64,000 bases of DNA, from the NCBI GenBank assembly GCA_937625935.1, contig OW569374.1, forward strand, positions 124,001 to 188,000, written 5' to 3'. A program made the position numbers and the translations under genes. The stretch's first letter is position 1; every line of letters starts with the position of its first letter. The notes beneath the pieces were generated by a model. That model saw nothing but the letters and a program-made list of their open reading frames with translations. It was not told the origin of the DNA and made no database searches. Source of the stretch: Tetramitus jugosus (taxonomy: Eukaryota > Heterolobosea > Eutetramitea > Acrasida > Vahlkampfiidae). This document shows, piece after piece, positions 26,693 through 48,634 of this stretch.

Positions 26693-26738
26693 TCTCCTCC
26701 GTTACTTTTCATTTCTAGGTGGGCCTCCGCCTTTGGCG

Positions 26739-27706
26739 CCTTTTTTTTGATACAACGAGCAGTTGCTCACTTTATTGTTTATCATTCTTTCCATTAGTTT
26801 CACTTATATTCATTGTGCCGCTCGAAGAGCGGCACTTGTATTACCTTTCAGTAACGCTCGGAGAGCGTTACTTCTGTTTGTAGTCTTTTGATTGCTGGTA
26901 AAGTGTGTGCAAAGTAACGGTGCAGCGACTCTTTACCCAACTGACAAAGCTACGTGCCTTGCGAAGGGCTAATTCTAACTTCATTCCATTCTTCACCAGT
27001 GCATCCATAACCTCATCAAGAGCTTCACTTTCAACGCCCATCATTCCCGAGAGGTACTCCAGTCCCATTACATCGGATTATGTGCATAAACCCCTTTGGG
27101 TGGTGTAAATCCTTGCTCATACATTCTGGCATTGCCTTGACAGTGAGTATCAACTCTTGATAAGTTTTTAGACCAAATCCTCTGCCAATCTCAGTTTTCA
27201 GTGCCTCGAAACTTCTGACTTCGCCCTCTTGCAACAGTTGTTGCTTCTGATAGATTCCCGCTCTACTCAGTAACCTCAATTGCAACGACTGTATGAGTCG
27301 TCAGTGATGATAATTCCTCTCTCGTGCAATCTCGAAGCACACCTCTTCATGAAGGAGTGTTTGACGCTGTTGATTCTGTGGTCCGATTGGAAGACGTTCT
27401 CCAGTTGGAACGTGTTTTGTGTCTTGATATACTCAAGTGAGTCGTACCACAGAACCCTAGCATCCTCATCTCTCTTCCCTCTCATCATAGCCTTCACAAA
27501 CAGGGCAGTGCGAATCGTCACTGCTTCAGTGAAGTTCTCAAGTCCGAAAGAACCCCACTCTGGGCCTACATAGAGTAACTCACTAGGGTATCGCTTCATT
27601 GCGACTGATCCGTTCACGAGTCTCTTTCCAATGCTCGAGACCTCATCCAGTTGTTTCATAGTCCACTTGGTGAACTCACATGCATATAGGAAGATGGATG
27701 GATGCA
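26739..27706 (-). mobile_element. 5'-truncated non-LTR retrotransposon with RT-3' region (copy A), TSD-flanked
   Basis: Inserted on the minus strand between 13-bp TSDs TCCGCCTTTGGCG (26726-26738 and 27707-27719). Its poly(A) tail is the T run at 26741-26748. The 3' UTR (26749-26867) holds two GC hairpins (GTGCCGCTC-GAA-GAGCGGCAC at ~26817-26837) and AATAAA. Upstream is a broken ORF like the C-terminal part of a LINE reverse transcriptase. The 5' end stops 41 bp before the 5S gene. Confidence 0.75.
26868..27706 (-). pseudogene. Reverse-transcriptase C-terminal region, frame-broken
   Basis: Three overlapping minus-strand frames continue one another: about 27706-27276 (…FTKWTMKQLDEVSSIGKRL…YPSELLYVGPEWGSFGLENF…), 27285-27031 (MQLRLLSRAGIYQKQQ…), and 27068-26868 (MGLEYLSGMMGVESEALDE…KDYKQK). 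At least two frameshifts separate them. The P-x-E-L-x-x-x-G-x-x-x-G-S-F-G-L pattern with a following helical part is like the region after the RT domain in LINEs, but the catalytic YADD part is absent, so the assignment rests on this pattern plus the poly(A)/TSD structure. Confidence 0.6.
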
Positions 27707-27747
27707 TCCGCCTTTGGCGGCAAAAACCATGACATGCAGAAACCAAT

Positions 27748-27866
27748 GTCTACGTTCATACAATGGTGGAACCACCTCTTCCCATTTCGAATCGAGAAGT
27801 TAAGCACCATCTGGCTGAGTTAGTATTGAGATAGGAGACTACTCGAGAACCCTCAGTAATGTAGGC
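27748..27866 (+). rRNA. 5S ribosomal RNA, copy 1
   Basis: 119 nt. The 5' GTCTAC pairs with 3' GTAGGC (stem I). It carries ACCACCTCTTCCCATTTCGA and GAAGTTAAGC, the universal 5S loop B/C segments, and the internal promoter region GAGTTAGTATTGAGATAGGAGAC. A T run follows at 27867-27870 (Pol III terminator). It differs from copy 2 by one base at position 46 (C at 27793). Confidence 0.95.
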
Positions 27867-27969
27867 TTTTAGTTTTTGTTGCGGCCAGAAGTTGTGCCAT
27901 TATCATGAAATCAACAAAAACCCATTGCGCGAAAAACAAACAAGTTCTGCTGCAACGGAACAAAACAAA

Positions 27970-28965
27970 ATGGCACCAAAACACCTGGAGAAGGGCAACT
28001 CGTTGTGCTTGTTGCCCGATGATGTTTCACTTGTGATTCTATCCTTTTTGGAGGTGAGTGACTGGAGTAACATGAGACTTGCTCAAAAGTCATGGAGCAT
28101 ATTTGAACTCACACGACATAATCTCTTGTGGGCACCAGTGTTTCAATCGATTGTCGATCGCCCTCTCTTTGAAACGATTAAATCAAGTGTTCTCTCTAGA
28201 GTTCAATCGGTTGACAACTACAGAGACAAAGTCCTAGCACTGAAACAAGTCGTGTCAGAGATTGTCGATATAAGAAAGGCAGATATTCTTACTGTGCCTC
28301 CCATTTTGAATCGTTCTTATCATAAATATCTGGGTTTTGCCGGATTAGACAAGTTCTCTGCCAAGAAGATACAAGCCACGAACTATCACCTGAACACGAT
28401 TAAGGTGAGTGTCGTAGGAGATCAATTAGTCGGAAAGACCTCTATGATTATCAGGACTGCTCAAAACTGTTTCCAACAGGTCTATCATTCATCAATGCTA
28501 GACAACTTTTGTGTCGATACGGCATGGGGTAGATGGAAAAGAACAATTACATTTTGGGATATTCCTGGATCAGACGTGTATGACCATTTGAGACCACTGG
28601 CTTATCCATCAACCGATCTTTTCCTAGTTTGCTTCTCTGTTGTAAATCCTTCGAGCTTTCAAAATGTGGCAAAAAAGTGGTTGGTGGAAATCATGCATCA
28701 CTGGCCTGACGCAATCGTGATGTTGGTGGGAACAAAAATCGATCTGAGAGATAATCTTACTCCTCTGATATCGAATACTTTGACTATCACCCCAGAAGAA
28801 GGAGAGTACATGGCTAAACATCATAATTGTATATTGTATGTTGAAACTAGTGTACTCACTGGACAGAATCTTCGTTTAGAGTTCCATTCCACTCTAGCCA
28901 GATGTGCTCTCATTGGACACTATTTGCGCAGAAAAGGGAGTTCTGATAAGTGTATCCTGTGTTAA
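27970..28965 (+). CDS. F-box / Rho-family GTPase fusion protein
   Basis: 331 residues from the ATG at 27970 (the longer frame opens at a TTG). The N-terminus is an F-box (CLLPDDVSLVILSFLEVSDWSNMRLAQKSW). From residue ~145 comes a Rho-like GTPase: P-loop GDQLVGKTSM, switch II WDIPGSDVYDHLRPLAYPS, GTKIDLRDN, ETSVLTG, and a C-terminal CILC prenylation box. F-boxes recruit SKP1-Cullin-1 ubiquitin ligases; prenylated Rho proteins sit on membranes. The switch II catalytic glutamine of Rho proteins (AGQ) is replaced (PGS), so intrinsic GTP hydrolysis is probably weak. The gene starts 104 bp after the first 5S gene. Confidence 0.88.
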   Translation: MAPKHLEKGNSLCLLPDDVSLVILSFLEVSDWSNMRLAQKSWSIFELTRHNLLWAPVFQSIVDRPLFETIKSSVLSRVQSVDNYRDKVLALKQVVSEIVDIRKADILTVPPILNRSYHKYLGFAGLDKFSAKKIQATNYHLNTIKVSVVGDQLVGKTSMIIRTAQNCFQQVYHSSMLDNFCVDTAWGRWKRTITFWDIPGSDVYDHLRPLAYPSTDLFLVCFSVVNPSSFQNVAKKWLVEIMHHWPDAIVMLVGTKIDLRDNLTPLISNTLTITPEEGEYMAKHHNCILYVETSVLTGQNLRLEFHSTLARCALIGHYLRRKGSSDKCILC

Positions 28966-29038
28966 TGCACATGCTCAAAAGTTCGAAGTATCACATCGAT
29001 AAAAACACTTTGAGTGGTTTATTATGTAAAAATATTAT

Positions 29039-32000
29039 CTAAATATCGATGGTACACACAGGGATAGTGGATTGGTTGGTTTGCAATCGAATGGTTACAA
29101 TTTCACTCTTTTCTTCAGGTCTCATGTAGTTGGTGAAGAATGTGCACAAGACGGTTGTTCCTCCTGTCAATGATTGCTGATGATTTGCAAAGTAGTTTGT
29201 GGTTACCTTGAATTGACCGTGAGGGGCTTTTCGGAGCATGTATTCCTCTGGGCCATATCCTTGACGGAAGTCTCTGCTCACATAGCCTCCAATCTTTGTT
29301 CTTGGATAAGCATAGTAGCAATGTTCACCTCCAGCACAATCTTCATGAACATGAAGATCAATGTCAATATCATTCACATCCCAGGCCATACTAATTCTCA
29401 AATCGAGATCCATCTTGTATCGGAAGCCATCGTGACATGGTTTAAGATCTGGGTTCTTGAGCAAGCAGTGATTCAATTCGATGGCAGCAGTTTGTTCAAT
29501 CTCGTCAAATCTCAAGTCCCATTTACCTGTAATCACCTTGTTGAACAGTTCGACAGCTTCTTCGAGCTTGCCCAACTTTTCTTTGACCAACGCAAGGTCT
29601 CGATAGCTCTGTGGCTCATCAGGATTCATTTTCTTCACCTTTTCGAACACCATTTCAGCCAGTTCATACTGTTTGGCTTGATCAAGACGATAACCCACGA
29701 TTCTGAACAATTGAGCATTTTCTAATTCTAGTTCGAGAATGTTGGTCAAGATGGCAACACCGTCATTCAAGTTCTTGAGTTTTGTGAGCCAAAAGTCAGC
29801 AACATCCAAGAAGAATGCAGGAGAGCTACCCAAGTTCTTTCTCTCCTGGAGATAGGCCTGATAAGGATTGCTTGATTTGCTTATAGTAGCCATGTATGCT
29901 GCATCCGATTTCCATTCTTGAATGTTGATGGATGCAGTCACTGCGTTGGAGGACTCTTCTTCCTCTTGTTTTTCCTTTTTCAATTCAGCTGAATTGTTCA
30001 TCTCGAGTGAACGTGCGAGGGCTGGTGAAGAGCCACCTCGAGCAGAGCTATTCTTGCATTTCTTTCGTTTCAGACCGGACGAAGAGGATTGAGACGAAAA
30101 AGATGCCAGTGGAGCAGGTGCAGCTTCACATCTTGCAGATGATGATCTATGCATGGATAAGGAGGGACTTGGAGGAGGAGCAGAAGCAGTTGTCCTCTGG
30201 TCACATTTGTCGTTTACTTGTTTCTCTGGAACCTGGAATACAGTCCGATGCCATCTCTTTCTTTCCTCCCATTTTGTCAGTACACTTTGAATTTTGTTTG
30301 CTTCTCTCTTCTTCTCATCGTCTTCTTTCTGTCGGACAAGTTTCTGGTACGATTCTCTTACTGATTTCAAGCTGGCAGGAGGTGTGATTTGATGCTTAAT
30401 ATATTGATCTAAAGTTTCCAACACAATTAAAGAGGTTGTTGGAGTGACAATAGACCATTCTCGACCCAAGTGTTTCAACTCCTTCTCAAACAAGTGGGGG
30501 AACACAGATAGGGAGTTCATCTTTTGTTTTGCCCAGAGCATTGGAATAATTCTATCTGATCTCTCTTGGGCTGTTGATGCTGTAGTAGCAGATGGTTCAA
30601 TGTCATAAACTCTTGTATCGATAATATCACCGCCATATCGGAAGGCAATTGACATTTGACCCCCTTGCTTTACCTTTCCATACAAGTGGAAGTGACCACT
30701 AGGCTCCAATATGGTTGGTTCATTTGGATACACCTCTTCAAACTCCTCTGTCTCATAATCGGCAACCAAAAAGTACAAAACTGGTTTTCCTACTTGCTCT
30801 ACAATTTGTTCAACACGAAGTTTGTTTGCGTTCAAAAGCATTCCACCACTCTTTGTTGCTACGTGGGAAAGCAATTGATGATTAGCCGACATACTCGTTG
30901 AGACAATGTACAATGGGATTGAGTAAGTCGTGTAAGGTGTTGTTTCTTGACCAATGGTGTGAATACCATCAGTAAACACAATACAGAACGAAGCGGACTC
31001 GTCCAACTCAGACTCGAGCAATGATAAATTAGTAGCGCCATCGTAATCCACCTTCTTGACATGATTTAACAATGATTGAGCGTCTCCAAAAGTTGCTCTA
31101 TTTCTCTCCTGCACTGAGTTACAGAATGGAGTAAAAACAACCTGTTTTGGCTTCAACTCCTTCATGATAGCGCTCAACAGCTCCAAATCCTTTTCAATCA
31201 TCTTTGTATTGCGACTACGGCTGTAGGAGCAATCCCAAAGAACTTGAACCTTATCAGTTTTCATTCTGCTATCACTCATTGGTTTTTCAACTTTGATACG
31301 AGCACAGAAGTAATTGTCTTCAGTAATGACACAGTTGTCTTCGAGTGTTTGACTACAACGAACAGTGAGGCTGTCCACGGACTCATCCAATTGAGAATTC
31401 TCAATAGTTGCGGTCATGTACTTGCCAGATGCCTGGCGAGGTTGATTGTCAGTAATTTTACGATCAGAGTTCAATAAAAGCTCCAATGATTCTTTGTCAC
31501 TCTCACCGTACCATTCGATATTAGCCTTAACAGTACTGTTATTTCCTGGCAATCCATACGGTATTATCACCTCTGAACAAGGTACATCTGCAACAGCAGA
31601 AGTAGAAACAGGCATCGTATACACCACTCTTATCACCTTTGGCTTTTGTGGCACCAATGGATACACACGCGTTCTAAAGCTATTGCTCTGATGAGTGGCC
31701 ATCTCTACAATAGCAACTCCCTTGCCTCTATCTCTCACCTCCTGCTCAAAAATCATCTTGGCCTTCTCTTTCTCAACGGGAACAGCATCAATTAGCTCTG
31801 TGCTTCCATCCACATTCATTGCATAAGCAATGAGAGTAGCATCGTCAGGCAGTGGAAAAACAAGCTCTCCTTCCAATGTTCTATTGTGAGGATTGACAAA
31901 AGTGAACACAGAGGTAATTTTAGCGATAGGCAAGTTGACTTGAATGTGAACATCGAGGGATTGGACGTCCAGTGGAGAGCTTGCTTGATCAGAAAAGGTG

Positions 32001-32194
32001 ATCTGAGGGAGATTGTTCCTTTGATTCTTGACATCCTTGTCTTCGTTTGAAGTTGGTTGTCGTTTTTCTTGGACATCTGTTGTAGCCGCTGTAGTTGGGC
32101 ATAGTGGTTCATTATCTTTGTTGGTTTGGACTTGAAAATCGGAAACATCCTTGGAGGCGTCCGTGGCTCTCAATCGACTGAATGCAGAAAACAT
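29039..32194 (-). CDS. VIT-VWA-TPR-DUF2135 protein
   Basis: 1051 residues from an ATG at 32194. Domains in order: VIT (~residues 70-195: LDVHIQVNLPIAKITSVFTFVNPHN, LEGELVFPLPDDA, REVRDRGKGVA-like IFEQEVRDRGKG), VWA (~310-470, MIDAS DCSYSRS, DGATNL, FTDGIHTIG), a basic Ser-rich linker, TPR-like helices (~800-900: YELAEMVFEKVKKMNPDEPQ), and a C-terminal DUF2135 (~935-1040: WDVNDIDIDLHVHEDCAGG, YVSRDFRQGYGPEEYMLRKAP). The VIT+VWA+DUF2135 layout is common in bacteria; in eukaryotes VIT/VWA occurs in inter-alpha-trypsin-inhibitor and PARP4-type proteins. No signal peptide is evident. The molecular role is unknown. Confidence 0.85.
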   Translation of the reverse strand: MFSAFSRLRATDASKDVSDFQVQTNKDNEPLCPTTAATTDVQEKRQPTSNEDKDVKNQRNNLPQITFSDQASSPLDVQSLDVHIQVNLPIAKITSVFTFVNPHNRTLEGELVFPLPDDATLIAYAMNVDGSTELIDAVPVEKEKAKMIFEQEVRDRGKGVAIVEMATHQSNSFRTRVYPLVPQKPKVIRVVYTMPVSTSAVADVPCSEVIIPYGLPGNNSTVKANIEWYGESDKESLELLLNSDRKITDNQPRQASGKYMTATIENSQLDESVDSLTVRCSQTLEDNCVITEDNYFCARIKVEKPMSDSRMKTDKVQVLWDCSYSRSRNTKMIEKDLELLSAIMKELKPKQVVFTPFCNSVQERNRATFGDAQSLLNHVKKVDYDGATNLSLLESELDESASFCIVFTDGIHTIGQETTPYTTYSIPLYIVSTSMSANHQLLSHVATKSGGMLLNANKLRVEQIVEQVGKPVLYFLVADYETEEFEEVYPNEPTILEPSGHFHLYGKVKQGGQMSIAFRYGGDIIDTRVYDIEPSATTASTAQERSDRIIPMLWAKQKMNSLSVFPHLFEKELKHLGREWSIVTPTTSLIVLETLDQYIKHQITPPASLKSVRESYQKLVRQKEDDEKKREANKIQSVLTKWEERKRWHRTVFQVPEKQVNDKCDQRTTASAPPPSPSLSMHRSSSARCEAAPAPLASFSSQSSSSGLKRKKCKNSSARGGSSPALARSLEMNNSAELKKEKQEEEESSNAVTASINIQEWKSDAAYMATISKSSNPYQAYLQERKNLGSSPAFFLDVADFWLTKLKNLNDGVAILTNILELELENAQLFRIVGYRLDQAKQYELAEMVFEKVKKMNPDEPQSYRDLALVKEKLGKLEEAVELFNKVITGKWDLRFDEIEQTAAIELNHCLLKNPDLKPCHDGFRYKMDLDLRISMAWDVNDIDIDLHVHEDCAGGEHCYYAYPRTKIGGYVSRDFRQGYGPEEYMLRKAPHGQFKVTTNYFANHQQSLTGGTTVLCTFFTNYMRPEEKSEIVTIRLQTNQSTIPVCTIDI

Positions 32195-32354
32195 GATTCG
32201 TAGTTGTGGTTGTGTTAATGGTACAGTTGTTTTGTTTGTGCTTGAGTGAAAATCAGAATGACGAGTTGAACTCGCGGCTGAAAAAGCTCCACTCGGGCTC
32301 CTTGGAACTCTTGCGGAGATTTGTTGTTCTTCACCTCAAATGTCACTCTGGCGC

Positions 32355-33674
32355 TTATTTGTTAACAACAATCACCACATCACCTAAAATTGAGCATGAC
32401 ACTAAGCGTTTCAGGTTGGATACGAAGAAATTCAAGCTCGTTTTTGATGATGCGGATCTCAGCAACACCATGTTAATGAAGTACCCAGAGGCGTAGCTAG
32501 CCACTTGATAGTGAGGATCATCCAACAGTTGACAGTATTCCGGGCTTGTCTTTTGTTCTTCAAGTTTTAGCAAAGACGTATTGTGATCATTGAGGTGAAG
32601 GTCGAACAAGCGCCCAGTACTTGTATCTACAACATGAAAGGTTTTCGCTCGTCCAGTGACCATAGGATGCGCTATTGTTGATGCATCAATGCTCCAAAGT
32701 GTTTGATCAGTGGCGTAAAGACTTGAAGAAGTAAAGACACGCTTCATTGAGTCCACAAAAACAGCATCATACCACGAGCATGAAAAGTCTTTGATTATTG
32801 CAGTTCCAAGACGACTCAGATCTAGCCTTATAAAACCTTTGCTAGCAAGAGCACTATGTGGAACGAGCTCATGGATATCGCCAGCTAAGTATATATCCCC
32901 CTGGCATAATACAACCATAAATTTGCTTCCACCCTTAACCTTTGTCAGGCGACCGAAATTGAATGGTTGTCGTGAGTTACTCAATGTATCAATGAAATGT
33001 GTTTCGGTTGCACTGGGGACATAAACAATGCCCCTGACTCCCAATTGACCATGCCTGTTTGATCCGACGGAATACACTTGATCTCCGTGTATTGGGTCGT
33101 ATTGAAACAAAAGATGTTCATTTCCGACTCCGAAAATGGAAACGGACCACCGGTGCCTTGACCTGAGAACAGGTTCGTTCGAACTATAGTTTGATCCAAA
33201 ACGCCCTACAGTGTACAACTCACCGTCTGTCGTAACAAATGCAGAGAACCACCCAGCGCAGGCAATATCTCGGATGCGAATGTTGCGTTCCACAAACCAG
33301 AGCATCAATGTCGGTACAGACACATTTTCTCTATGTAGTGCATGATTCTGATCATAGCACAACAATTGACCAGATGAATTAGGGCCTACACCATAAACAA
33401 AGCCATCTTCTGTCAAAAACAAGCAATGAATACTACCAATCTCAATCTTCTTTAACTGAACATTGGACAGTTTCTTGTCCAATGTATAGGGTATCTGGAG
33501 CTTCGAAAATCCAGGACAATGCTCTTCAATGTCATCCATTGTCATTGATATTGGACCAGGCGATAGCATCACTCCCAAGACTTGTTCTGCTTGCTGAGTG
33601 TTCGCTTGTGCATCCCACAGTTCTTGGCTGTCCAAATGTTGACCACTCACCAATAAAATATTATCTTGATCCAT
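32355..33674 (-). CDS. RCC1-like repeat protein
   Basis: 439 residues from an ATG at 33674. It contains RCC1-type blades: [47 protein letters not shown], and weaker blades to ~residue 380. RCC1-like beta-propellers act as guanine-exchange factors or binding platforms. The blades are divergent and only about four to five are clear, so a Ran-GEF role cannot be claimed. The C-terminal ~40 residues are unlike the repeats. Confidence 0.7.
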
Positions 33675-33774
33675 TTCTGAGCAGATTTTTCTTTTGTTGG
33701 TTGTTTTCTGGAAGTGCTCCGACTCAAATCTGATAGTTAGATATCTATTACTCCCAGATAAAATTGATAACTCG

Positions 33775-33894
33775 GAGAGACAACAAAAATTTGGTCAACA
33801 CATGTCTCAGCTCATGAAGTTGGCTGAAGAGTTCAATGTGGCAGTGTTTATTACCAATCAAGTTCAAGCGGATCCTAGCGGTGGTAGCATGTTT
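33775..33894 (+). pseudogene. DMC1/RAD51-like recombinase exon fragment
   Basis: Forty codons read [20 protein letters not shown] and [20 protein letters not shown], the well-known RecA-fold segment of DMC1/RAD51 with the VFxTNQ motif. The homology starts and stops abruptly, with no ATP-binding Walker motifs nearby, so this is a displaced exon fragment rather than a gene. It lies between the RCC1-like gene and the ORF1 retroelement. The ADP after NQV suggests DMC1 rather than RAD51. Confidence 0.75.
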
Positions 33895-34020
33895 GCTCTG
33901 ATGATGGTTTCATTGAAGCTAAGGAATAGCGTTGTTTTTCGGTAACAAGCCAATACAGACAAACAATCAATTTATTCAAATTAAAACTTGGATTTGGGCG
34001 CGAGGCCAAGGGCGCGAACT

Positions 34021-35341
34021 TTTTTTTTTTTTTTTTTTTTGTTCCATACAACCAAGTGTGCGCAAGCACACGATTGCTCATTTATTGACTTGTTTTGTGA
34101 GTGACGACCCGTAGGGCGTCGCTCACTCTTCTTCTCTTGTTGTCCCCGACGGTGCACCTACAGGTTGGAAGAATCACTCAAGTGAGTGTTTTGATTGATG
34201 CCCTTCATCAAAGAGCGTAACCTTGTAGTAGGACCGCCGATGGACACAGAGCCATCTGTTGTTGTTTTCTTGTTTTGGGCCTTGTTGCTCCTCAGATCAC
34301 CCAGTGTGATCCTAGCACTCCTCTTCTTGTTGTCATTGAGTTGTGGACTTTGAATCTCCTTTTCGGAGTCGTCGTCCACATCCACAATGACTGGTTCGTC
34401 CTCAGTCAAACCATACCTTTTGCGTGCACTGGCCAGTGCCAATGCAGCAATTTCCTTCTTCGCTCTAGCAAACACTGGAGAAGTAACATTCACTTGCTCC
34501 AGGATTTGCTGATTTTCAGCGCTGAGCTGTGCAACAGGCACTGTTGGCAGTGGTGTTGCACTCCTTTGTTCTTCTGTCTCCATCAGACCAGGAGCAGTTC
34601 TTTGTGCAACTTCTTGTTCCGGTATCGGAACCGGTTTGTTGCCCTCTTGGCCCTTTGTCTTTGCCAATTCCTTGGTGAGTTCTGTGACCTGTCGACGCAG
34701 TGCGTCAACCACCGTCAGCAGCTCCTCGTACATCTTTGTCAACCTCTTGTTGACGGCCTTGAGAGGATCATGTGGCCTCTCGACGTATCGAGTGACCGTG
34801 GCCTTTACCTTGTTCTCTCCGGTGAGCACTGCTTGTGCATAGGTTTCATCACCCATGACCACGAAAGCAGTGTCACGCTTCTTGAGCACACTGGCGACCT
34901 TTTCAGGTCCCAGTAGCTTCTTGATGTCGTCCACTGACATGTTCTTCATGCCATGGACGACCACCTTTCTTGTGCAATCAACACTGCGCTTGGGTGCAGC
35001 AGTGCTATTGCCAATCCTCCTTTGCTTGTTGAACAAATCAACAAAGTCATAGATGCGGTCACCCTTGACCGTCACCCATGCAACAAAGCGTTGCTGGCCT
35101 TTCCTTTTGATGACTTGGACTCGGTTGAGCCAGTCACCAAACTCCTCTCCAATCTTTCTTGCCAAAGATGACTGAGAGACGCCATTACCGTTGCCAGTAA
35201 TGACGACCTCTCTGTCACTTGGCCTCGTGCCTTTCCGTGCAGTGGTCCACACTGCATAACGGCTGTTGCCGTATTCCTTCACCAAATTTGTTGAATCACC
35301 AGACATGTGATTCCGTTTTTTTCTGCGTTTTTTTTTTTTTT
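34021..35341 (-). mobile_element. ORF1-only non-LTR retroelement (copy B), TSD-flanked
   Basis: About 1.3 kb on the minus strand, flanked by direct repeats GCCAAGGGCGCGAACT (34005-34020 and 35342-35357; a 17th T matches too). The 3' poly(A) is the ~20-nt T run from 34021. A 35-nt A-rich leader precedes an intact ORF1. The 3' UTR has two hairpins (GACGACCC-GTA-GGGCGTC region and GTGTGC-GCAA-GCACAC), AATAAA, AGCAA and GTTGTAT before the tail, as in copies A, C and D. There is no reverse transcriptase. It ends 22 bp upstream of 5S copy 2. Confidence 0.8.
34158..35306 (-). CDS. LINE ORF1-like RNA-binding protein
   Basis: 382 residues from an ATG at 35306. Two RRM-like folds can be read: residues ~30-95 (REVVITGNGNGVSQSSLARKI … RFVAWVTVKG) and ~110-165 (RKVVVHGMKNMSVDDIKKLL … DTAFVVMGDETYAQAVL). 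A coiled coil follows at ~180-215 (LTKMYEELLTVVDALRRQV), then an acidic/basic C-terminal tail. RRM plus coiled coil is the plan of L1-type ORF1 proteins, which coat element RNA as a trimer. The ORF is intact, so the copy is recent or still selected. The N-terminal SRYAVWTTARKG segment recurs in two decayed copies near 48.1-48.4 kb. Confidence 0.75.
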   Translation of the reverse strand: MSGDSTNLVKEYGNSRYAVWTTARKGTRPSDREVVITGNGNGVSQSSLARKIGEEFGDWLNRVQVIKRKGQQRFVAWVTVKGDRIYDFVDLFNKQRRIGNSTAAPKRSVDCTRKVVVHGMKNMSVDDIKKLLGPEKVASVLKKRDTAFVVMGDETYAQAVLTGENKVKATVTRYVERPHDPLKAVNKRLTKMYEELLTVVDALRRQVTELTKELAKTKGQEGNKPVPIPEQEVAQRTAPGLMETEEQRSATPLPTVPVAQLSAENQQILEQVNVTSPVFARAKKEIAALALASARKRYGLTEDEPVIVDVDDDSEKEIQSPQLNDNKKRSARITLGDLRSNKAQNKKTTTDGSVSIGGPTTRLRSLMKGINQNTHLSDSSNL

Positions 35342-35379
35342 GCCAAGGGCGCGAACTTCAATGATCAACATAACCAAAT

Positions 35380-35498
35380 GTCTACGTTCATACAATGGTG
35401 GAACCACCTCTTCCCATTTCGAATAGAGAAGTTAAGCACCATCTGGCTGAGTTAGTATTGAGATAGGAGACTACTCGAGAACCCTCAGTAATGTAGGC
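35380..35498 (+). rRNA. 5S ribosomal RNA, copy 2
   Basis: 119 nt, identical to copy 1 except A at 35425. The stem I pair GTCTAC/GTAGGC is intact and a T-rich terminator follows (from 35499). It is an isolated single gene, not in an array. Confidence 0.95.
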
Positions 35499-35654
35499 TT
35501 TTGCCTTTTTTGGTTTGGACACGCGTAGAAGCTGTCACTTTCCGATGTTTATTGATGGGAGTCGGCCTCATTCTTACGTATTTTTGAAACAGAAAAGTGG
35601 AGCTGAACTTTGTGAATCAAGTTCTATTCATGTGAGTCCATCTGATCTTCTGAA

Positions 35655-35714
35655 CCATGGTGTGAATGTTTGGGAGTAGGTTTGCCGTTCAGTGGTGGTA
35701 GGTTTTTAGAGCTT
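35655..35714. repeat. ~60-bp imperfect repeat, copy 1
   Basis: About 75-80% identical to 35883-35946 by eye, including TGTTTGGGAGT and TTCAG(T/C)GGT. It could be duplicated exon ends on the minus strand (frame PL(N/K)GK(P/S)TPKH) or part of an RNA. Confidence 0.6.
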
Positions 35715-35882
35715 TTTGGTCTTCAATATTGTATGAATACAAAATTTGTGTGTATTCAGATATTGAAAAGTTAGATTATCCTCACAGAGGTAGTGGTCTC
35801 ATCAGATTTTCTTGAGACATCTACAAGTAGTTGTCATTTCGTCGTTCCATACCTCTGAGCCTTTTAGTTTTGTTTTGACGAT

Positions 35883-35946
35883 GGCCGTTGTGTGATATGT
35901 TTGGGAGTTGATTTGCCTTTCAGCGGTCGTATTATCTTTGAGAGCT
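35883..35946. repeat. ~60-bp imperfect repeat, copy 2
   Basis: Partner of 35655-35714. The ATGAATACAAA following each copy (at ~35733 and ~35991) is conserved as well. Confidence 0.6.
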
Positions 35947-36400
35947 ATTCAGCTGCTCTTGTTTGCTTGTGTTCGTTCTTTTATCTGGAAATGAATACAA
36001 ATTAAGTTGTGGTGGGGTCTGTGCTCTGAGAAGAAAAGAAATGATGAGCTCATTGAACTTCTTCGCAAGGGGAACAAAAATTGAGAATTTTTGTATGAAC
36101 ATACTTGTTGTTGGTTATTAATTGGTAGAGTGATGTGATTTCGTTTCGAAAGTGAATGGATTTCGTTGCGAAGAACCAACAACAAACCTCAATGTTACCA
36201 TTACAACGTGTTGGGGTGCGATGTTGTGACAGATGAGGACTGTGCAGAAATCTCTTTTTCCTCGATTTGAAGTAGATATGCGAATGGAGGTTTCAACCAT
36301 TCTTAGAAGTCTGGCTCCCCATGAGGAAATAAAACTCCGCTCGATCATCTACGACTGCTTGATTTACTGGACCAAAGTCGGGAAAAACAAGTTTTGAGGA

Positions 36401-39970: not shown

Positions 39971-39997
39971 GATCAGAAGAGAACATCAAAAAACGAA

Positions 39998-41062: not shown

Positions 41063-41269
41063 AATCTCAAAGGAAATATAAATATCAAGGTTGACGACAG
41101 GTTCAGTTCATCAAAAGTGAAACAACACGTCAAACACCAAAAAGTCCTAATGGGCAAGAATGAATGGCCCGGGCTAACGATTTTCCGTCGGAGTTCCCTA
41201 ATTCCCCAACACCGACAACAACAAAAAAAAACAAAAGGACAACAACAAACAACGAACGACGGAAACAGA

Positions 41270-42316
41270 ATGGGTAACTTATTTGCATCACTCCTATCAC
41301 GAATCAAAAAACGAGACACTCGTGTTCTATTGCTCGGATTAGACCATGCCGGAAAAACAACGGGTAAATGATCAAACTGCGTTTTTTATGTTGTTTTGTG
41401 TGTATTGCTGTTCATCATCATCATCATCATCAGACAAAAAAGTTGATATTGACTCTATATCATACATATCACGCACTAGTTCTGACTCAAATGGGACTCA
41501 AGGACATGTACACCAAACAACAGCGAACAAAAGATGAACAAGATGGATTAGAAGAAGCTGATGTGAATAATATTGTACCAACTGTTGGATTCAACGTCAA
41601 GGAAGTTGTTTTTGGAAAACTGCAGTTTGTGTTGTGGGATTTGGGTGGTCAAGTCAATGTATGTCATTTCATGATTTTGCCATTTTGCTATTTTGTTATT
41701 TTGATAAGCTTGTTTGTTGTATTGAACAACCATATTTAACTCATTCATCAAATTTATTTGCTTGATTGATTGTTGATCTTGATGGATTTGTTGTTGTTGT
41801 TGTTATGATGATGTGATGTGATGATGATGTGATTTTGGATGGTGTTAGATTCGTCAAATGTGGAAACATTATTACAAGGGAACAGATGGTATTATTTATG
41901 TGATTGATTCGAGTGATACAACGAGAATACAGGAGAATAAGAAGGAAATTGAAAATTTGTTGACTCAAGAGGAGCTCAAGAATTGTTGTTTGTTGATTAT
42001 TGCAAACAAGATGGATAAACGTATGGATGGATTATTGTCGATTGTTTTTTTATTAGAATAGTTGGGGTGAGAGAACAAAGTCATTGTAACAACTCTTTGT
42101 ATTTTTGTGTTTTTGTGTGTTTATTGTTGTATCTGTGCAGCAAATGCCATGTCATCGACAGAGCTGATTGCAAAGCTTGAATTGGAGGACAATATTGGAA
42201 AGAGTCGGCCGTGGTTCGTTCAGAGCACTTGTGCTCTCTCTGGTGAAGGTTTAACGCGCGCACTGGAATGGTTTGTTGAAAAGATACAGCAACAGCAGCA
42301 GCAGCAGCAACAGTAA
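41270..42316 (+). CDS. ARF-like small GTPase with polyQ tail (4 exons)
   Basis: Exons 41270-41363, 41480-41658, 41849-42020 and 42141-42316, with introns of 116, 190 and 120 bp, give 206 residues. Joins restore family motifs: LLLGLDHAGKTT-VLTQ, LWDLGGQVN-IRQMWKHYYKGTDGIIYVIDSSD, and NKMDK-PNAMSS. MGN at the start predicts myristoylation. ARF/ARL proteins recruit effectors to Golgi and endosomal membranes; ARL1/ARL5-type is likely. Oddities: a ~20-residue charged insert between the P-loop and switch I (TKQQRTKDEQDGLEEADVNN), His replacing the usual Asn/Ala in GLDxAGKT, and a C-terminal run of ~9 Gln from CAG/CAA repeats. Confidence 0.88.
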
Positions 42317-42686
42317 CACTCTTAAAGGCAGCAAATGGAGTTGTGTGAGATGAATTGACCTCTTGCACGATTCGCTCCCTTTTTTTGTCTTGTAATTTAT
42401 TTTCCCTATGAAGCTTGCCATGATACTTCTCAGCAGTTTGTTCTTGCTACGCAAGCAAGGATATCAATCAACAACAACAACGTCGAACAACAACCATAAC
42501 AGCAGCAAATGTCTCTGGAAATTGTAAATTTGTTGTAGATGGCAGATGAGCAAAACAACCACCCCAAACCAAAATAAATGTTGATCACTGAAATGCATGC
42601 TTGCTTCAAGCGGCCAATTAGCGCACCAAAATGTGTGTTTTCTTCACAAGTTTTTTATCTCAAGAAAAAAGCAACAACAAAGAACA
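42317..42686. other. Intergenic region, nothing recognised
   Basis: 370 bp between the ARL gene and the SRRM1-like gene; A/C-rich toward the downstream ATG. No gene or repeat is visible. Confidence 0.5.
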
Positions 42687-43946
42687 ATGAACTTTAGAGG
42701 CGTGTCCATTGATCAAGATTCTCGATTCTCCAGGAAAGACACCAAACTGCGCAACAGCATTCCCTGTCCCTCCATTTTCTCCCAATCGGTCAATCTCAAG
42801 CACGTGAACATGAATGCAATGAGACCGTGGATCAAATCTCGTTTGACAGAGTTGGCCGGATACGAAGACGAAATTCTTACAAATTATGCAATTGAAATGT
42901 TGGAGACTGCGATTCAATCCAATGAAAGCAATAGTGATGTCGATCCAAGAGAAATGCAAGTCAATTTAACTGCATTGACCTATCAAGAAAAGGCGTTTCA
43001 GTTCATGGAGGAATTGTGGACTCATTTGGTGTCGGCTACGAATACGCCCAGTGGAATACCAGAGGAATTTTTGGCTCGTGAGAGAGAAAAGGTCATGGAA
43101 GCACGGAGGCAACAAGAACAGATTAGAAGTCAGATTGAACGAAGAAGTACGAGCTCGAGAAAACCAGTGATACGTGATAGTTCGAGCCGAGGTGCTGCGA
43201 ACGAGGATGCTCGCTATTCGCAGCAGAGGAGAAGAAGAGATGTTGTTGTGAAGCGAGAAGAGCAGGAGGAAGCAGGAGAGCAGGTAGCGGCGACAGAGCC
43301 AGCACGAATTGGTCAAAACACATTGATGAAAGATGAACGCAACAGACAATACAGAGATGATCATGATTATCGATCAAACAAGCGATATCGAAGTGAGAGT
43401 AGTGGTGGTGGTAGTAATTATCAATCCAGAAGAAGCAACGAGCGAGCTGTGAGTGATGACTCATCGGATGATGACGAAACTAAGAATAATAGTGATTCTG
43501 ATGGATACATTAGGAGAAGACGAGACAGAAAGGATGAAAATGAGAGACGTGATCGGCATGCAACTGAAAGTAGTCGAAGTAGCTCTCGATACAGTCATGG
43601 CGATAGTAGTAGTCGTAGAGATCGCAGTAATAGAGATAGGAGAGAGGATTACGAATATAGAAATCAGCGATATTCGAACAGTGATAGAGAAAGGCACAGA
43701 TATGACAGGAGAGACGATAATAGGAGAGGTGAATATGATAGTTACGACTATAGGAGCAGACGAGGAGTAGATGATAGAGCGGAACATGCAAGATATCAAG
43801 TACCATCTCAGCGTGAGACAAAGCCCAGAAAATCACCTCTTGATGCACCACCAAGCGCGAGTCCGTCTTCTTCGACGAACACATTGTCAGCAGCGGAAAT
43901 TGCTGAGAAACTGAGAGCAAGGATCAAGACCGAACAAGTGCAATAA
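42687..43946 (+). CDS. SRRM1: SRRM1-like PWI-domain splicing factor
   Basis: 419 residues from the ATG at 42687, chosen because MNFRGVSIDQDSRFS matches the family start (an in-frame ATG at 42597 would add 30 residues). The PWI domain (residues ~30-130) has NMNAMRPWIKSRLTEL, DEILTNYAIEMLE, MQVNLTALT and FMEELWTHLVSA, then GIPEEFLAREREKV. The rest is an Arg/Ser/Asp-rich RS-like tail with many RD, SR and YR dipeptides. SRRM1 (SRm160) binds nucleic acid through the PWI domain and bridges spliceosome components, consistent with the intron-bearing genes in this window. Confidence 0.9.
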   Translation: MNFRGVSIDQDSRFSRKDTKLRNSIPCPSIFSQSVNLKHVNMNAMRPWIKSRLTELAGYEDEILTNYAIEMLETAIQSNESNSDVDPREMQVNLTALTYQEKAFQFMEELWTHLVSATNTPSGIPEEFLAREREKVMEARRQQEQIRSQIERRSTSSRKPVIRDSSSRGAANEDARYSQQRRRRDVVVKREEQEEAGEQVAATEPARIGQNTLMKDERNRQYRDDHDYRSNKRYRSESSGGGSNYQSRRSNERAVSDDSSDDDETKNNSDSDGYIRRRRDRKDENERRDRHATESSRSSSRYSHGDSSSRRDRSNRDRREDYEYRNQRYSNSDRERHRYDRRDDNRRGEYDSYDYRSRRGVDDRAEHARYQVPSQRETKPRKSPLDAPPSASPSSSTNTLSAAEIAEKLRARIKTEQVQ

Positions 43947-43991
43947 TCTGTGAATACAATGCCTCTCAAATTGAACCCTTACGTCTATTAT

Positions 43992-44993
43992 TTATTCTTT
44001 GTGTTTGTAGATAAATTCACCAGTTTCATAATCGAAGAATCGATTGGTTCTCGAGTGGTAAGTGGCAAATCGATACAGGATTGAGATTGGAGTTAGGAAC
44101 GCTATTCTCGATCCACTACCCTTAATATTTCGTATCCTGTCATAAATGTAGGAAGCCACAGTCGAAGGTTCCTCAGCCAAAATATTGAACAGGCGTTTGG
44201 AGCGCAATGGAGTGCCCTTCTTGACCAATAGATCAGTGATCACCATTCCGGGAGATAATCGATGGATACCAATTCGATCATTGGCTAACTCTTTTTGCAC
44301 TGACAGAGTAAACTGTGAGACAGCTGCTTTGGTGCAACCATAGACTGACATGTTGGCTGTTGCACCGCCTCTCGATCCAGCTCCTTCCATATTGAATACG
44401 TGACCTCCCTTCTTTTGACTTAACATCAATTTTATCGCAGCTCTCGTGCAAATAATGGAACCAAACATGTTTACACTGACAATACGATCAATTTGCTCCA
44501 CATCTAGCTCGTGCAAGGGTTTGTTCACCACTGTGGACACACCAGCATTGTTGATCCAGACATGGATGAGCCCATCAGGTCCAATCGTCTTCTGAATATA
44601 TGAAACAAATTGATTCATACTGGCTTCACTCGAAACATCACACACGACACCATGAATGCATGGTTCATCGTCTTCCTGCGATGTTTTACCCAGGTAAAGC
44701 TTATTGTTTTTCACTTGTTGTTGAATGGTTGACACAGCCTTCTGGAGTCTTTGTTCATTGGTTGCACAAATGATAACACTGTGACCGTTTAGACAAAATT
44801 GCTTGGCCAAGGCATAACCAATTCCTCTGGAGCCACCAGTAATCACAACATTTAGCTTTTTCACCTTGGTCAAGTTCATTCCGCCAGATGGTGGCGCCAA
44901 AATTCGCATGAAAAAGATCGCCGTAGCCAGCACAATCACGCCAACGGCGACAAAAACTGGGTGAGAAGAAAGAAGCCAAATGATGTTCAACAT
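43992..44993 (-). CDS. NYC1/NOL (chlorophyll b reductase)-like SDR, membrane-anchored
   Basis: 333 residues from an ATG at 44993. A TM anchor (residues ~10-30) precedes a Rossmann SDR: VVITGGSRGIGYALAKQF, CDVSS, WINNAGVS, FNMEGAGSRGG, YGCTKAAVSQF (YxxxK) and RLSPGMVITDLLV, with a C-terminal RFFDYETGEFIYK. The FNM(D/E)GAGS and SPGMVxTDLL motifs and the extended C-terminus are those of the NYC1/NOL chlorophyll b reductase group rather than generic SDRs. With no plastid expected in this lineage, the substrate is probably something else. All SDR catalytic residues are present. Confidence 0.85.
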   Translation of the reverse strand: MLNIIWLLSSHPVFVAVGVIVLATAIFFMRILAPPSGGMNLTKVKKLNVVITGGSRGIGYALAKQFCLNGHSVIICATNEQRLQKAVSTIQQQVKNNKLYLGKTSQEDDEPCIHGVVCDVSSEASMNQFVSYIQKTIGPDGLIHVWINNAGVSTVVNKPLHELDVEQIDRIVSVNMFGSIICTRAAIKLMLSQKKGGHVFNMEGAGSRGGATANMSVYGCTKAAVSQFTLSVQKELANDRIGIHRLSPGMVITDLLVKKGTPLRSKRLFNILAEEPSTVASYIYDRIRNIKGSGSRIAFLTPISILYRFATYHSRTNRFFDYETGEFIYKHKE

Positions 44994-45149
44994 GTTTTTG
45001 TGATCAAATTTTAAGGTTGTTCTGCGATACCTGCACAGTACGTACGATACGGCCGTATTTCTTGCTTTTGGTTTTGAGCTGCTCCGTAGGAGAATTTATT
45101 TCTCTGAGATGGAAATTAAAATAGAATCTTCAGGAGCCAAAAACAAGAC

Positions 45150-48110
45150 ATGAAAAAGAAATTCCAGTCCAGTGGTGGTGATGATCGAGATGATGTTGTT
45201 GAAGGTGGTATTTCACTTTGGCTGACAGCACTACTGATTGTTCACATGATTGGTATTCATTTCTTTACAAGTGGATTCCTGTTAACTCGGGTGCAGTTGG
45301 ATTCCAAGAGTCAGTGCACCGTGCTGCCAGCATCGCTACAACAAACTGTGAATGGCTCAAAAACGATGGACGATAAGAATTGTTGGATTCCACTGGCATC
45401 AAGTGCTCAAATGAAGCATAAGCGAGTGATTTTGTTTATTATTGATGCATTTCGGTTCGATTTTGTGTTTAAACAGGATTCGATGCCATTTCTGAATGGA
45501 TTGCTGTCGAAGCGGAGAGAAAGCCAACGTGAACAGTCCAATGCATATCCTTTATTATTCAAATTTGTGGCTGATGCGCCCACGACGACAAGCCAAAGAC
45601 TGAAAGCTTTAACAACTGGTAGTTTGCCCACTTTTATTGACGCAGGTAAAAACTTTGACTCGGATGCTGTTCAGGAAGACAATTGGGTTTATCAAATGGC
45701 GAAAAATAAGAGAAAGGTTGTTGCATTGGGTGATGATACTTGGAAGCACTTGTTTCCAACAGTAGACGCGTCGAGCCCGCTGTTTACGAGGGAGAGACTA
45801 TTTCCGTCATTTGATGTGTGGGATTTACACACTTTGGATGATTCAATATTACGATATTTGGGCGCTGAGTTGAATACGACAATGAGCGATGATGAACTAC
45901 AACAATTGTACCGATCATATGAGAGTATTGATAGAGGAGCACATGACTTTAATGAAACGGATTTCGGGAAATGGGACGTGCTAATTGCACACTTTTTAGG
46001 AGTTGATCATGCGGGTCATAGATATGGCGTTCATCACCAGGAGATGCACAATAAGTTAAAGCACATGGACTCCTTACTTCAAAATATTATTGAGAATCTG
46101 CCCGAAGACACTCTGTTGATGATGTTTGGTGATCATGGTATGGATGAAAATGGTGATCATGGAGGCGGAACTGACCAAGAGGTAAATTCTGCACTGTTCG
46201 TATACAGTAAACATGCAAGCCAGACAGCTGTAGATAATACGATTAAGGTATTCGACTCTTCCACAAACGAACAACTGAAGTACGTGGAGGAGCATGATAT
46301 TTCATTTCGAACAATCTCCCAGATTGACTTAGTACCAACACTCTCGTTTTTATTGGATGTTCCAATACCTTTCGGTAATCTAGGAACCATTATTCCAGAA
46401 GTATTTCAAAGCATATATGGAGAAAGGAACTCAATGACCTTCAATTTAGATCTAATCAGGACGAATAGCCACCAAGTTTGGTCGTATCTCACTGAGTATG
46501 CCACTACCGATTCAAGTTTATTGTCACTCGATCAAATATCTCAACTAAGAAGCCAACGAGAATCTGCCGATCAAGCATTCTCTCAAATAACTGAGCAGTC
46601 CTCCCCTTCAGAAGTATTCAACGCATTCAACAAGTATCATGATTTTTTACAAGAAGCATCACGCATATGCAGAGAACGGTGGGCTAGCTTTGATATGATG
46701 AATATGGCGCTAGGTATTGGATTGAGCTCATGTTCCACCATTGCAATCATTCTGCTTGCAATTGGAGTGAATGCAAAGCCGGCACAATTTTATGTTTATT
46801 TTTTCATATTTGAATCGATGATCTATTTTGCGATTAAGTTTGTAATCCAACCGAATAATTTAGTAACGTGGATTGGAACGTCTGGTGTATTCTTGCTCAA
46901 CAATATTGACATGATCAAGTCGTTCACGACCTTTAGTTACTTAACACTACATTTTTGGTCAATGAGCAAGAATCGAGATAATAGCCGAGAAACCGAACAT
47001 CGTTACAACCTCGTTCAAAGTGTGCAAATCTATTTGTCAATAATTATGGTTGTAGCTCTACTGGGATCAATATTTTCCAATAGTTATATTGTTTATGAGG
47101 ATCGAATAATTTTGTACTGCCTCCTGACGCAAGCCATTCTCTTTTTCATTGGAGAGAGAAGCAAGTACAAGCATCTACCATATCATATAATGTACATGTT
47201 AGCGATGAGGTATTCCTATCAGAAACTTCGTCTTCGAATTCATGGAACGCATCAAATTTTATCAGCAGTACCACAACCTTTCTCTATTAGTTCGACTGTT
47301 GTTGTTTCAATTGGAATTATTGGATGTGTTGGGTTTTCCGCCAGGAAGATGTCAACCACGATTAGAAAACTACTGGTGATGTATTATGTGGTATTGCTAG
47401 GAATCATCAGTAGTTACTGGTACTTAAATTACTATGACATAAGAACCGAAGGTGTGAACTTGCACTTGTTGCTCCCTCGTACGGTTTATTTATTGTCGTT
47501 CATATCGATATGCATCGGTTTGGTTATGGATGCAAAGCATGACACAGATATTTTGTTTCTGGTGGCCTCTATTCCATTCATTTTACTCAAGGGCCACTCG
47601 TACTTGGTAATTTGGTTGGCATTGTTTATTCAGATTAGTTGCTTTTCTGTGATCACAGAGCAGAGTCTTCGAGGTAGATCACTAGGAAGTACATGGCTGC
47701 GCATATTTCACTTGGCATTCTTCAGTCTACAGTACTTTTTTGCTCTAGGACAGCAGAACTCATTGAATACTATTCAATGGACAAGTGCCTTCGTGGGGAT
47801 CGATAATGCCCAATTATTCTTCTCGGGATTCCTAGTCATCCTTAATACCTTTAATACCAAAATTCTATTTACATTATCTCTGGCATCATTAACAAGAAAG
47901 GCAAGAAATGTGTTCGCGTTGTTCAGCGCATTGTTTTGTGCTATAGGCACTTTCACAATGTTTTGTGCATTCATTCAAAGGAGGCACCTTATGGTTTGGG
48001 CCATATTTGCTCCAAAGTTCATTTTTGATAACATCAGCACTGTGGTCATGTCCGTCATAACGATAGCAGTACTTCTGATTAAGAACAAAACAAAAAAGAA
48101 GATTGAATGA
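45150..48110 (+). CDS. PIGO: GPI ethanolamine phosphate transferase 3 (PIG-O)
   Basis: 986 residues from an ATG at 45150. An N-terminal TM is followed by FLLTRVQLDSKSQC and the alkaline-phosphatase-like catalytic domain: VILFIIDAFRFDFVF, TTTSQRLKALTTGSLPTFID, HFLGVDHAGHRYG, and MMFGDHGMDENGDHGGGTDQE with metal-binding Asp/His. From residue ~515 come about a dozen TM segments. PIG-O adds ethanolamine phosphate to the third mannose of GPI precursors in the ER. The full length matches the family (human ~1,089). Retroelement relics begin directly after the stop. Confidence 0.92.
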   Translation: MKKKFQSSGGDDRDDVVEGGISLWLTALLIVHMIGIHFFTSGFLLTRVQLDSKSQCTVLPASLQQTVNGSKTMDDKNCWIPLASSAQMKHKRVILFIIDAFRFDFVFKQDSMPFLNGLLSKRRESQREQSNAYPLLFKFVADAPTTTSQRLKALTTGSLPTFIDAGKNFDSDAVQEDNWVYQMAKNKRKVVALGDDTWKHLFPTVDASSPLFTRERLFPSFDVWDLHTLDDSILRYLGAELNTTMSDDELQQLYRSYESIDRGAHDFNETDFGKWDVLIAHFLGVDHAGHRYGVHHQEMHNKLKHMDSLLQNIIENLPEDTLLMMFGDHGMDENGDHGGGTDQEVNSALFVYSKHASQTAVDNTIKVFDSSTNEQLKYVEEHDISFRTISQIDLVPTLSFLLDVPIPFGNLGTIIPEVFQSIYGERNSMTFNLDLIRTNSHQVWSYLTEYATTDSSLLSLDQISQLRSQRESADQAFSQITEQSSPSEVFNAFNKYHDFLQEASRICRERWASFDMMNMALGIGLSSCSTIAIILLAIGVNAKPAQFYVYFFIFESMIYFAIKFVIQPNNLVTWIGTSGVFLLNNIDMIKSFTTFSYLTLHFWSMSKNRDNSRETEHRYNLVQSVQIYLSIIMVVALLGSIFSNSYIVYEDRIILYCLLTQAILFFIGERSKYKHLPYHIMYMLAMRYSYQKLRLRIHGTHQILSAVPQPFSISSTVVVSIGIIGCVGFSARKMSTTIRKLLVMYYVVLLGIISSYWYLNYYDIRTEGVNLHLLLPRTVYLLSFISICIGLVMDAKHDTDILFLVASIPFILLKGHSYLVIWLALFIQISCFSVITEQSLRGRSLGSTWLRIFHLAFFSLQYFFALGQQNSLNTIQWTSAFVGIDNAQLFFSGFLVILNTFNTKILFTLSLASLTRKARNVFALFSALFCAIGTFTMFCAFIQRRHLMVWAIFAPKFIFDNISTVVMSVITIAVLLIKNKTKKKIE

Positions 48111-48111
48111 A

Positions 48112-48365
48112 GGAAGCCAGACACACGTTTTCGGCTTGTCAGCTTCCCGTGTAGCGGCACACACTGCATAATGGCACGAAATTTTCAGCTTTTAAATTTA
48201 ACAACAACAAATAGTGCTCCGTTTCCGCAAACTTTTATTTTTCTTTTGTGTGAGAGCAGGCTTGCTCAATTGCCTTACATGATGTGGTGCTTGTCCAGTG
48301 GAGTCCCTCTTGCGAGTGTGGTCCACACAGCATAGCGTGGGTTCTCATACTCTCGAACATTTTTG
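48112..48365 (-). mobile_element. Two decayed ORF1 fragments of the retroelement family
   Basis: On the minus strand 48283-48365 reads EYENPRYAVWTTLARGTPLDK, against EYGNSRYAVWTTARKGTRPS in the intact ORF1 of copy B. 48120-48178 reads HYAVCAATREADKP, and its bases TTATGCAGTGTG...CACGG track the same ORF1 codons. Both are short and stop-terminated. Confidence 0.6.
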
Positions 48366-48384
48366 GGATTTCGCCTCATCTGGT

Positions 48385-48511
48385 TGTTTTTTTTTGATAC
48401 AACGCGCAGTTTCTCACTTTATTGTTTATCATTCTTTCCATTAGTTTCACTTAGCCATTGTGCCGCTCGAAGAGCGTCACTTGTCTTACCTTTCAGTAAC
48501 GCTCGAAGAGC
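48385..48511 (-). mobile_element. Solo 3' end of the retroelement (copy D), TSD-flanked
   Basis: 127 bp on the minus strand between 18-bp direct repeats GATTTCGCCTCATCTGGT (48367-48384, 48512-48529). It holds the two GCTC-GAA-GAGC hairpins, AATAAA, GTTGTATC and a poly(A) tail (T run at ~48386-48395). It is ~85% like 26741-26868 of copy A by eye. Its 5' end is 50 bp upstream of tRNA-Asn and the TSD ends 32 bp upstream. Confidence 0.8.
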
Positions 48512-48561
48512 GATTTCGCCTCATCTGGTAAAAAATACTGGATATGATCTAAAAATGTAAT

Positions 48562-48634
48562 CCTCCATGGCTCAGTTGGTAGAGCGTCAGGCTGTTAACC
48601 TGCAGGTCGTTGGTTCGAGCCCAACTGGAGGAGA
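48562..48634 (+). tRNA. tRNA-Asn (GTT)
   Basis: Acceptor TCCTCCA pairs with TGGAGGA, discriminator G at 48634. D arm GCTC-AGTTGGTA-GAGC, anticodon loop CTGTTAA (anticodon GTT), T arm GTTGG-TTCGAGC-CCAAC. A and B boxes (TGGCTCAGTTGG; GGTTCGAGCCC) are intact and no intron is present. The outermost anticodon-stem pair is a T-C mismatch. A TTTT terminator is at 48641-48644. Confidence 0.97.

Follow-up and report, generated by a model that had tools for sequence, protein, structure and literature searches.

RESULTS

Insertions upstream of the Pol III genes in the window

The window analyzed here is a stretch of 64,000 nucleotides, positions 124001-188000 of contig C31, from a compact genome assembled into 56 contigs (26.35 Mb). 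Within it lie three genes transcribed by RNA polymerase III (Pol III), all on the plus strand: two 5S rRNA genes, at 27748..27867 and 35380..35499 (RF00001, 95.3 and 100.4 bits), and a tRNA-Asn(GTT) gene at 48561..48633. Upstream of each, on the minus strand and antisense to the gene, is an inserted non-long-terminal-repeat (non-LTR) retroelement, designated copy A, B, or D, with a poly(A) tail and flanking target-site duplications (TSDs). In substance, this agrees with the first-pass annotation of this DNA.

Copy A (26739..27706) belongs to a lineage coding for reverse transcriptase (RT). It is truncated at the 5' end and internally deleted, consisting of the C-terminal part of open reading frame 2 (ORF2) and the 3' untranslated region (UTR), which adjoin here and are separated by 424 bp on contig C38; its best protein match is RT_L002. 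The 13-bp TSD TCCGCCTTTGGCG, like the others read on the plus strand, stands at 26726..26738 and again at 27707..27719, ending 28 bp before the first 5S gene. Copy B (34022..35341) is a full-length ORF1-only element of 1.3 kb whose single reading frame, 34158..35306 on the minus strand, encodes 382 amino acids. Its 17-bp TSD, GCCAAGGGCGCGAACTT, at 34005..34021 and 35342..35358, ends 21 bp before the second 5S gene. Copy D (48385..48511) is a 5'-truncated 3' end of the copy-A lineage, with 125 bp counted from a T-run at 48387; the 18-bp TSD GATTTCGCCTCATCTGGT, at 48367..48384 (within the 5' end of what remains of an older element) and 48512..48529, ends 31 bp before the tRNA gene. In all three copies a T-run follows the left TSD and corresponds to the poly(A) tail of a minus-strand element; in A (T-run from 26741) and in D two extra bases come first. 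The spacing given at first pass was exact for copy A; for copies B and D it had been about 22 and 32 bp, the tRNA start having been placed off by 1.

The proposal that the three insertions represent a single family did not hold. Copies A and D are one lineage, with two stretches of their 3' ends 97 and 95% identical, and copy B belongs to a separate ORF1-only family. The sole likeness noticed between B and A/D is a 3' module, which in copy D (48395..48453, minus strand) comprises AATAAA and then GTTGTAT with an A-run, the first stem arm being GAAAC; it is common to other lineages as well. Just distal to copy A, 26621-26679 holds the 3' end module of an element of a third lineage (GGTTGTATT), and copy A thus stands in tandem. 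The relic beside copy D, 48240-48366, lies between a GPI-transferase gene and copy D and is by eye an internally deleted element, the start of an ORF1 like that of the B2 family described below fused to its own 3' UTR. Its start codon had lain about 38 bp from the tRNA gene, closer than in other B2 copies.

Pol III genes across the genome

From the side of the genes, we sampled 56 nuclear loci: 30 5S genes (the first 30 of 47 listed) and 26 tRNA genes (30 from 63 listed, minus four on contigs C54 and C56 that are probably mitochondrial). C54 and C56 carry the same tRNA genes at identical coordinates and are probably two copies of the mitochondrial genome. The loci were chosen by gene score and not by element presence; the sample is not random, and tRNA-Ile is over-represented. 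Each locus was scanned with element proteins and DNA. An antisense element was found within 150 bp upstream at 28 of the 56 loci (15 5S and 13 tRNA), and within 150 bp downstream no element match was found at any of the 56. The lone upstream match in sense orientation (L045) is antisense and upstream relative to a second, divergent 5S gene. At L039 and L056 the protein alignments extend about 50 bp into the 5S gene; the TSDs place these junctions at -40 and -51. Elements adjoin tRNA genes of many types (Val, Asp, Lys, Met, Gln, Arg, Gly, Asn, Thr, and Ser).

Under a strict TSD rule, 24 of 71 loci score. When the 70-bp gene-proximal zone was exchanged between loci (50 repeats), a mean of 0.44 of 71 did so, and none scored when the same rule was applied to the downstream flanks of 59 loci. 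At first pass, three marked genes had been judged unlikely by chance; where 28 of 56 sampled loci are marked, three of three in one window is in itself unremarkable.

A 30-base 5S core (at most three mismatches) has 116 matches in the genome. The B-box pattern has 534, versus 86 for a reversed control, so that several hundred tRNA genes are likely. Some 5S genes are paired, about 0.46-1.0 kb apart, and the element remnants found there run antisense to whichever 5S gene is closer; the pairs are divergent in L036/L037 and L045 and convergent in L044. Just downstream of the second 5S gene of the window, 35666-35942 holds a 46-nt direct repeat, 78% identical, with 231 bp from start to start.

Two registers of insertion distance

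For the measurement of distances a slightly looser TSD rule was used, with a T-run of 6 and one mismatch allowed from 13 bp; the swap control covers the strict rule only. By this rule TSDs of 11-18 bp are present at 27 of 74 gene flanks, and their gene-proximal ends fall into two registers. In the inner register, occupied by the copy-A lineage and the GTTGTATGG lineages, including B, the TSD ends 27-31 bp from tRNA genes (9 loci) and 21-28 bp from 5S genes (9 loci). In the outer register, occupied by elements with TG- or TT-GTTGTATT 3' ends (B2 and the L022, L006b, and L051a RT lineages), it ends at 39-42 bp (tRNA, 5 loci) and 34-36 bp (5S, 4 loci). The insertion interval of 22-33 bp first proposed is adequate for one register; the TSD ends form two, at 21-31 and 34-42 bp. 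Mean positions are -29.9 (tRNA) and -23.8 (5S) for the inner register and -40.4 and -34.8 for the outer, with a standard deviation of 1.0-2.1 bp within each group. The gap between registers is 10.5 bp at tRNA genes and 11.0 bp at 5S genes, that is, one helical turn, and the split follows lineage (9/9 versus 0/18, P = 2.1e-7, post hoc). Between tRNA and 5S genes the TSD ends shift by 5.6-6.1 bp in both registers, consistent with a ruler anchored at the start of transcription, a point upstream of the mature tRNA end. The 5' junctions of the elements lie at 42-49 bp (tRNA, 9 loci) and 35-41 bp (5S, 9 loci) in the inner lineages and at 54-56 and 50-51 bp in the third lineage. Copies beyond the TSD set show the same pattern. 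The 5' junctions of 14 B copies next to tRNA genes fall at 39-48 bp, the terminal T-run being counted as element, and those of two B2 copies, measured by hand, at 54 bp.

A compact genome offers one way to obtain such a distribution without targeting, in that elements might insert at random and survive selection only beside Pol III genes, as safe sites. The genome is indeed small, and the window is densely packed with open reading frames. However, selection alone would hardly yield a single orientation (28 to 1) on a single side of the gene (28 to 0), TSD ends with a standard deviation of 1-2 bp, or a shift of one helical turn between lineages, and we regard this explanation as very unlikely. 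Less probable still, to the point of being barely credible, is that a few insertions occurred and that cassettes of gene plus element were then copied around the genome. Such copying would suit the dispersal of the 5S genes (the 116 pattern matches), and the two 5S copies of the window have 162 bp in common at 90% identity, some flank included. Yet the TSDs and flanks are distinct at the 27 TSD loci, the tRNA types are many, and the truncation points differ.

Tandem insertions bear on what is recognized at the target. At L079 and L082, terminal bases from the 5' end of an older B copy form part of the TSD of the gene-proximal element and so occur both before and after it, and in an array on contig C49 (L108/L118) the younger TSD likewise holds 5'-end bases of the older element. 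In the window, by eye, the TSD of copy D lies within the 5' end of the older relic. From these sequences, the nick made by the younger element appears to have fallen partly within the older one, with the usual distance to the tRNA gene kept. Because the second nicks would lie inside the older element and the distance is nonetheless preserved, these tandems suggest that insertion reads distance and not sequence. Sequence-specific nicking is common among target-specific non-LTR elements, such as R2 and R1, and this speaks for the alternative that the endonuclease recognizes a DNA sequence whose position upstream of Pol III genes is incidental. But inspection by eye, with no motif search, showed no word shared by the 27 TSDs, and at three tandems the second nick would have been made in 5'-end sequence of the older element rather than in native flank, at the same distance; recognition of sequence is accordingly a very improbable account.

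Distribution of the element copies

From the side of the elements, 40 copies of the copy-B family were scored among 167 first-look candidates. Of these, 27 adjoin a Pol III gene, 12 stand in same-sense tandems, and 1 does neither. The direct neighbors comprise 15 of 20 5' flanks (L098 with a 5'-deleted tRNA gene), copy B of the window and L060, six copies placed by coordinates (C34, C20, C48, and C35, with C1 and C8 by B-box only), and four of the seven flanks L111-L117 (L112, L113, and L116, and by eye L115 with a 5'-deleted tRNA-Lys gene). The tRNA genes at L098 and L115 lack part of the 5' half, perhaps through deletions made at insertion. Tandem copies are those at L097, L099, L105, L108, L110, L111, L117, and C18 (L079), together with four known by coordinates, on C15, C37, and C7 (two copies). 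For the copy-A lineage, 18 of 30 pieces, several of them overlapping, contain a tRNA or 5S gene. These surveys of flanks and copies bear out the expectation raised at first pass: the B copies are not scattered, and side, orientation, and distance are non-random.

Anatomy of the element group

The group consists of two-ORF elements, with ORF1 followed by an ORF2 that carries an APE endonuclease, RT, and a cysteine-rich tail, and of at least two ORF1-only families, the 3' module being common to all. Features of non-LTR elements (long interspersed nuclear elements, LINEs) are present: APE and RT, a poly(A) tail, TSDs of variable length, and 5' truncation. Genome-wide there are 73 RT matches, 112 ORF1 matches, and 42 endonuclease-family matches, many of the last outside these elements; ORF1, endonuclease, and RT are in line on one strand at no fewer than 13 places. 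On contig C18, the tRNA-Lys gene starts from 90744, and ORF1 (90680-89376), endonuclease (89367-88927), and RT (87783-87121) follow; on C23, a tRNA gene runs to 91592, with ORF1 from 91644, endonuclease from 92951, and RT from 94535. In the one copy read for this purpose (L066), ORF2 lies in the -1 frame, and its ATG overlaps the ORF1 stop (ATGTTGA). The cysteine-rich tail of ORF2, CPRCG..HCLVRC, was recognized by eye; zinc-finger models gave no match to it.

The 40 scored B copies are 90-100% identical, and the ORF1 is open: 34 of the first 35 matches cover all but at most one residue, with no stop. B2, the second ORF1-only family, is about 50% identical to B in ORF1. Both families include complete, TSD-bounded elements of 1.3-1.4 kb with ORF1 alone. 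The protein encoded by the copy-B ORF1 is predicted from a structural model to have tandem domains resembling the RNA recognition motif (RRM) and a coiled coil. Database relatives of this ORF1 number five, none with an organism name. B and B2 copies (L091-L109, L063, and L078) begin with a variable A-run before CGCAG or CGCCG, 2-9 bases long in 14 B copies, which might be untemplated, a product of microhomology, or the transcript start.

When the loci examined were searched for GTTGTAT with an A-run directly behind it, 61 distinct ends emerged, of which at least two (L065 and L089) look like chance. Nearly all have the form AATAAA, GCAAC, loop, GTTGTAT, A-run. Since ORF1-only and RT-coding elements have this module in common, the sequences suggest that RT recognizes it in trans.

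DISCUSSION

The elements described here form a group of non-LTR retrotransposons whose copies lie upstream of tRNA and 5S genes at spacings that, where measured, are nearly constant, the 5' end of the element being toward the gene. We consider it likely that this reflects a protein-RNA complex that docks on the Pol III initiation complex, with an endonuclease that nicks at a set distance. The gene-proximal end of the TSD would mark the first-strand nick, on the sense strand of the Pol III gene, and this nick would prime reverse transcription, which would begin at the poly(A) tail. Through the 3' module, the ORF1-only RNAs may be served in trans by the protein encoded in ORF2. In TRE5-A, the closest known case, the ORF1 protein is reported to bind TFIIIB proteins (PMC5911963); here either ORF1p, with its predicted tandem RRM and coiled coil, or ORF2p could be the partner that contacts TFIIIB. 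The tandems imply that a later element, inserting at the same distance, would land between the older element and the gene, and arrays would grow from the gene side.

Several observations weigh against this reading or parts of it. Half of the sampled Pol III loci are without an element, a fragment at L077 is located on the downstream side of a tRNA gene, 332 bp away, and for a fragment on C25 without its 5' end (L114) the 150 bp read contain no Pol III gene. Only 3 of the 12 tandem B copies are traced to a tRNA gene (C18, L079; C20:181847, by coordinates; and C49, L118, with the tRNA-Ser start by eye), and 4 of the 12 are known by coordinates alone. Twelve of the 30 copy-A-lineage pieces have no tRNA or 5S gene inside the piece; in L002, L005, and L021 the element extends past it. 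The model of the B ORF1 protein is of low confidence (mean predicted local distance difference test score, pLDDT, 54.6, with block means of 64-84 over residues 11-100), and the 3' hairpin beats shuffled sequences clearly in two of six cases (z = -3.28 and -2.43), the other four ranging from -1.24 to +0.61.

As to the two registers, we lean toward a ruler encoded by lineage. One clade would cut the DNA precisely one helical turn further out from the Pol III initiation complex than its relatives do, keeping to the same face of the helix, with an equal shift in the ORF1-only family that is its partner. Each element would then dock with a geometry of its own on a Pol III surface common to all, a form of targeting not known before in this supergroup.

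The likeness to the TRE elements of dictyostelids noted at first pass turns out to be closer than was stated then, specifically to TRE5, and extends to distance, orientation, 5S targeting, tandems, and ORF1-only partners. In published descriptions, TRE5 elements of Dictyostelium discoideum are reported to insert 40-54 bp upstream of tRNA genes and 37-41 bp upstream of 5S genes in opposite orientation, form tandems without integration into each other, and include an ORF1-only TRE5-A.2 that is mobilized in trans; TRE5-A is associated with 24% of tRNA genes (PMC5911963, PMC5391098, PMC5006619). The distances match for two of our lineages, and the third (54-56 and 50-51 bp) is slightly outside the TRE5 range. 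Here, too, the 5' end faces the Pol III gene in opposite orientation (the 28 antisense elements), ORF1 precedes an ORF2 with APE and RT, and B and B2 are the non-autonomous ORF1-only partners; the counterpart of the zinc finger would be the cysteine-rich tail seen by eye. This likeness is close in behavior and was judged from published descriptions, not by phylogeny.

There are also differences. A second lineage lies one helical turn further out here, and dispersed chromosomal 5S genes are a major target, whereas the 5S target reported in Dictyostelium is extrachromosomal. A -1 frameshift is given for TRE5 ORF2; here, in the one copy read, ORF2 is likewise in the -1 frame but has its own ATG overlapping the ORF1 stop. 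The ORF1 has no named relative, and the host is not a dictyostelid by the tree of its PIG-O protein. This protein groups with Naegleria in a 36-row tree, although only 40% identical to Naegleria proteins, and on that tree the host is best called heterolobosean-like.

Were the elements true members of the dictyostelid TRE5 family, through deep descent or horizontal transfer and not convergence, the equal distances, the orientation, the use of 5S genes, the tandems, and the ORF1-only partners would all be expected. But the 120 RT relatives listed (of 1138), mostly nameless, include none under a dictyostelid name, the five ORF1 relatives are nameless too, and one paper calls TRE targeting unique to dictyostelids. 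Membership is thus unlikely, if less so than the alternatives considered above.

Other systems are more distant. NLTR-B of Polysphondylium pallidum is reported 39-64 bp upstream of tRNA genes and is taken as independently evolved (PMC5006619, PMC5911963); RNase H replaces the zinc finger there. Ty1 and Ty3 of yeast likewise target through the Pol III machinery but are LTR elements with an integrase, do not use target-primed reverse transcription, and insert at other distances (PMC5911963). Mutsu (5S) and Dewa (tRNA-Leu spacer) of zebrafish are non-LTR elements tied to such genes, yet each is specific for one gene type and not for Pol III genes generally at a set distance (PMC3706591). A literature search, with most subscription journals outside its coverage, found no report of such Pol III-targeted non-LTR elements for Naegleria or other heteroloboseans, or otherwise outside dictyostelids; the accessible part of the N. 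lovaniensis genome paper mentions repeat classes and no insertion near tRNA genes.

These elements extend target-primed retrotransposition guided by Pol III to a lineage remote from the dictyostelids; the strategy either re-evolved with nearly equal numbers or is very old. The two registers amount to a natural experiment, in which related elements use the same targets one helical turn apart. If the proposed mechanism is right, then at half of the Pol III loci in the sample the insertions would be footprints, preserved like fossils, of the initiation complexes.

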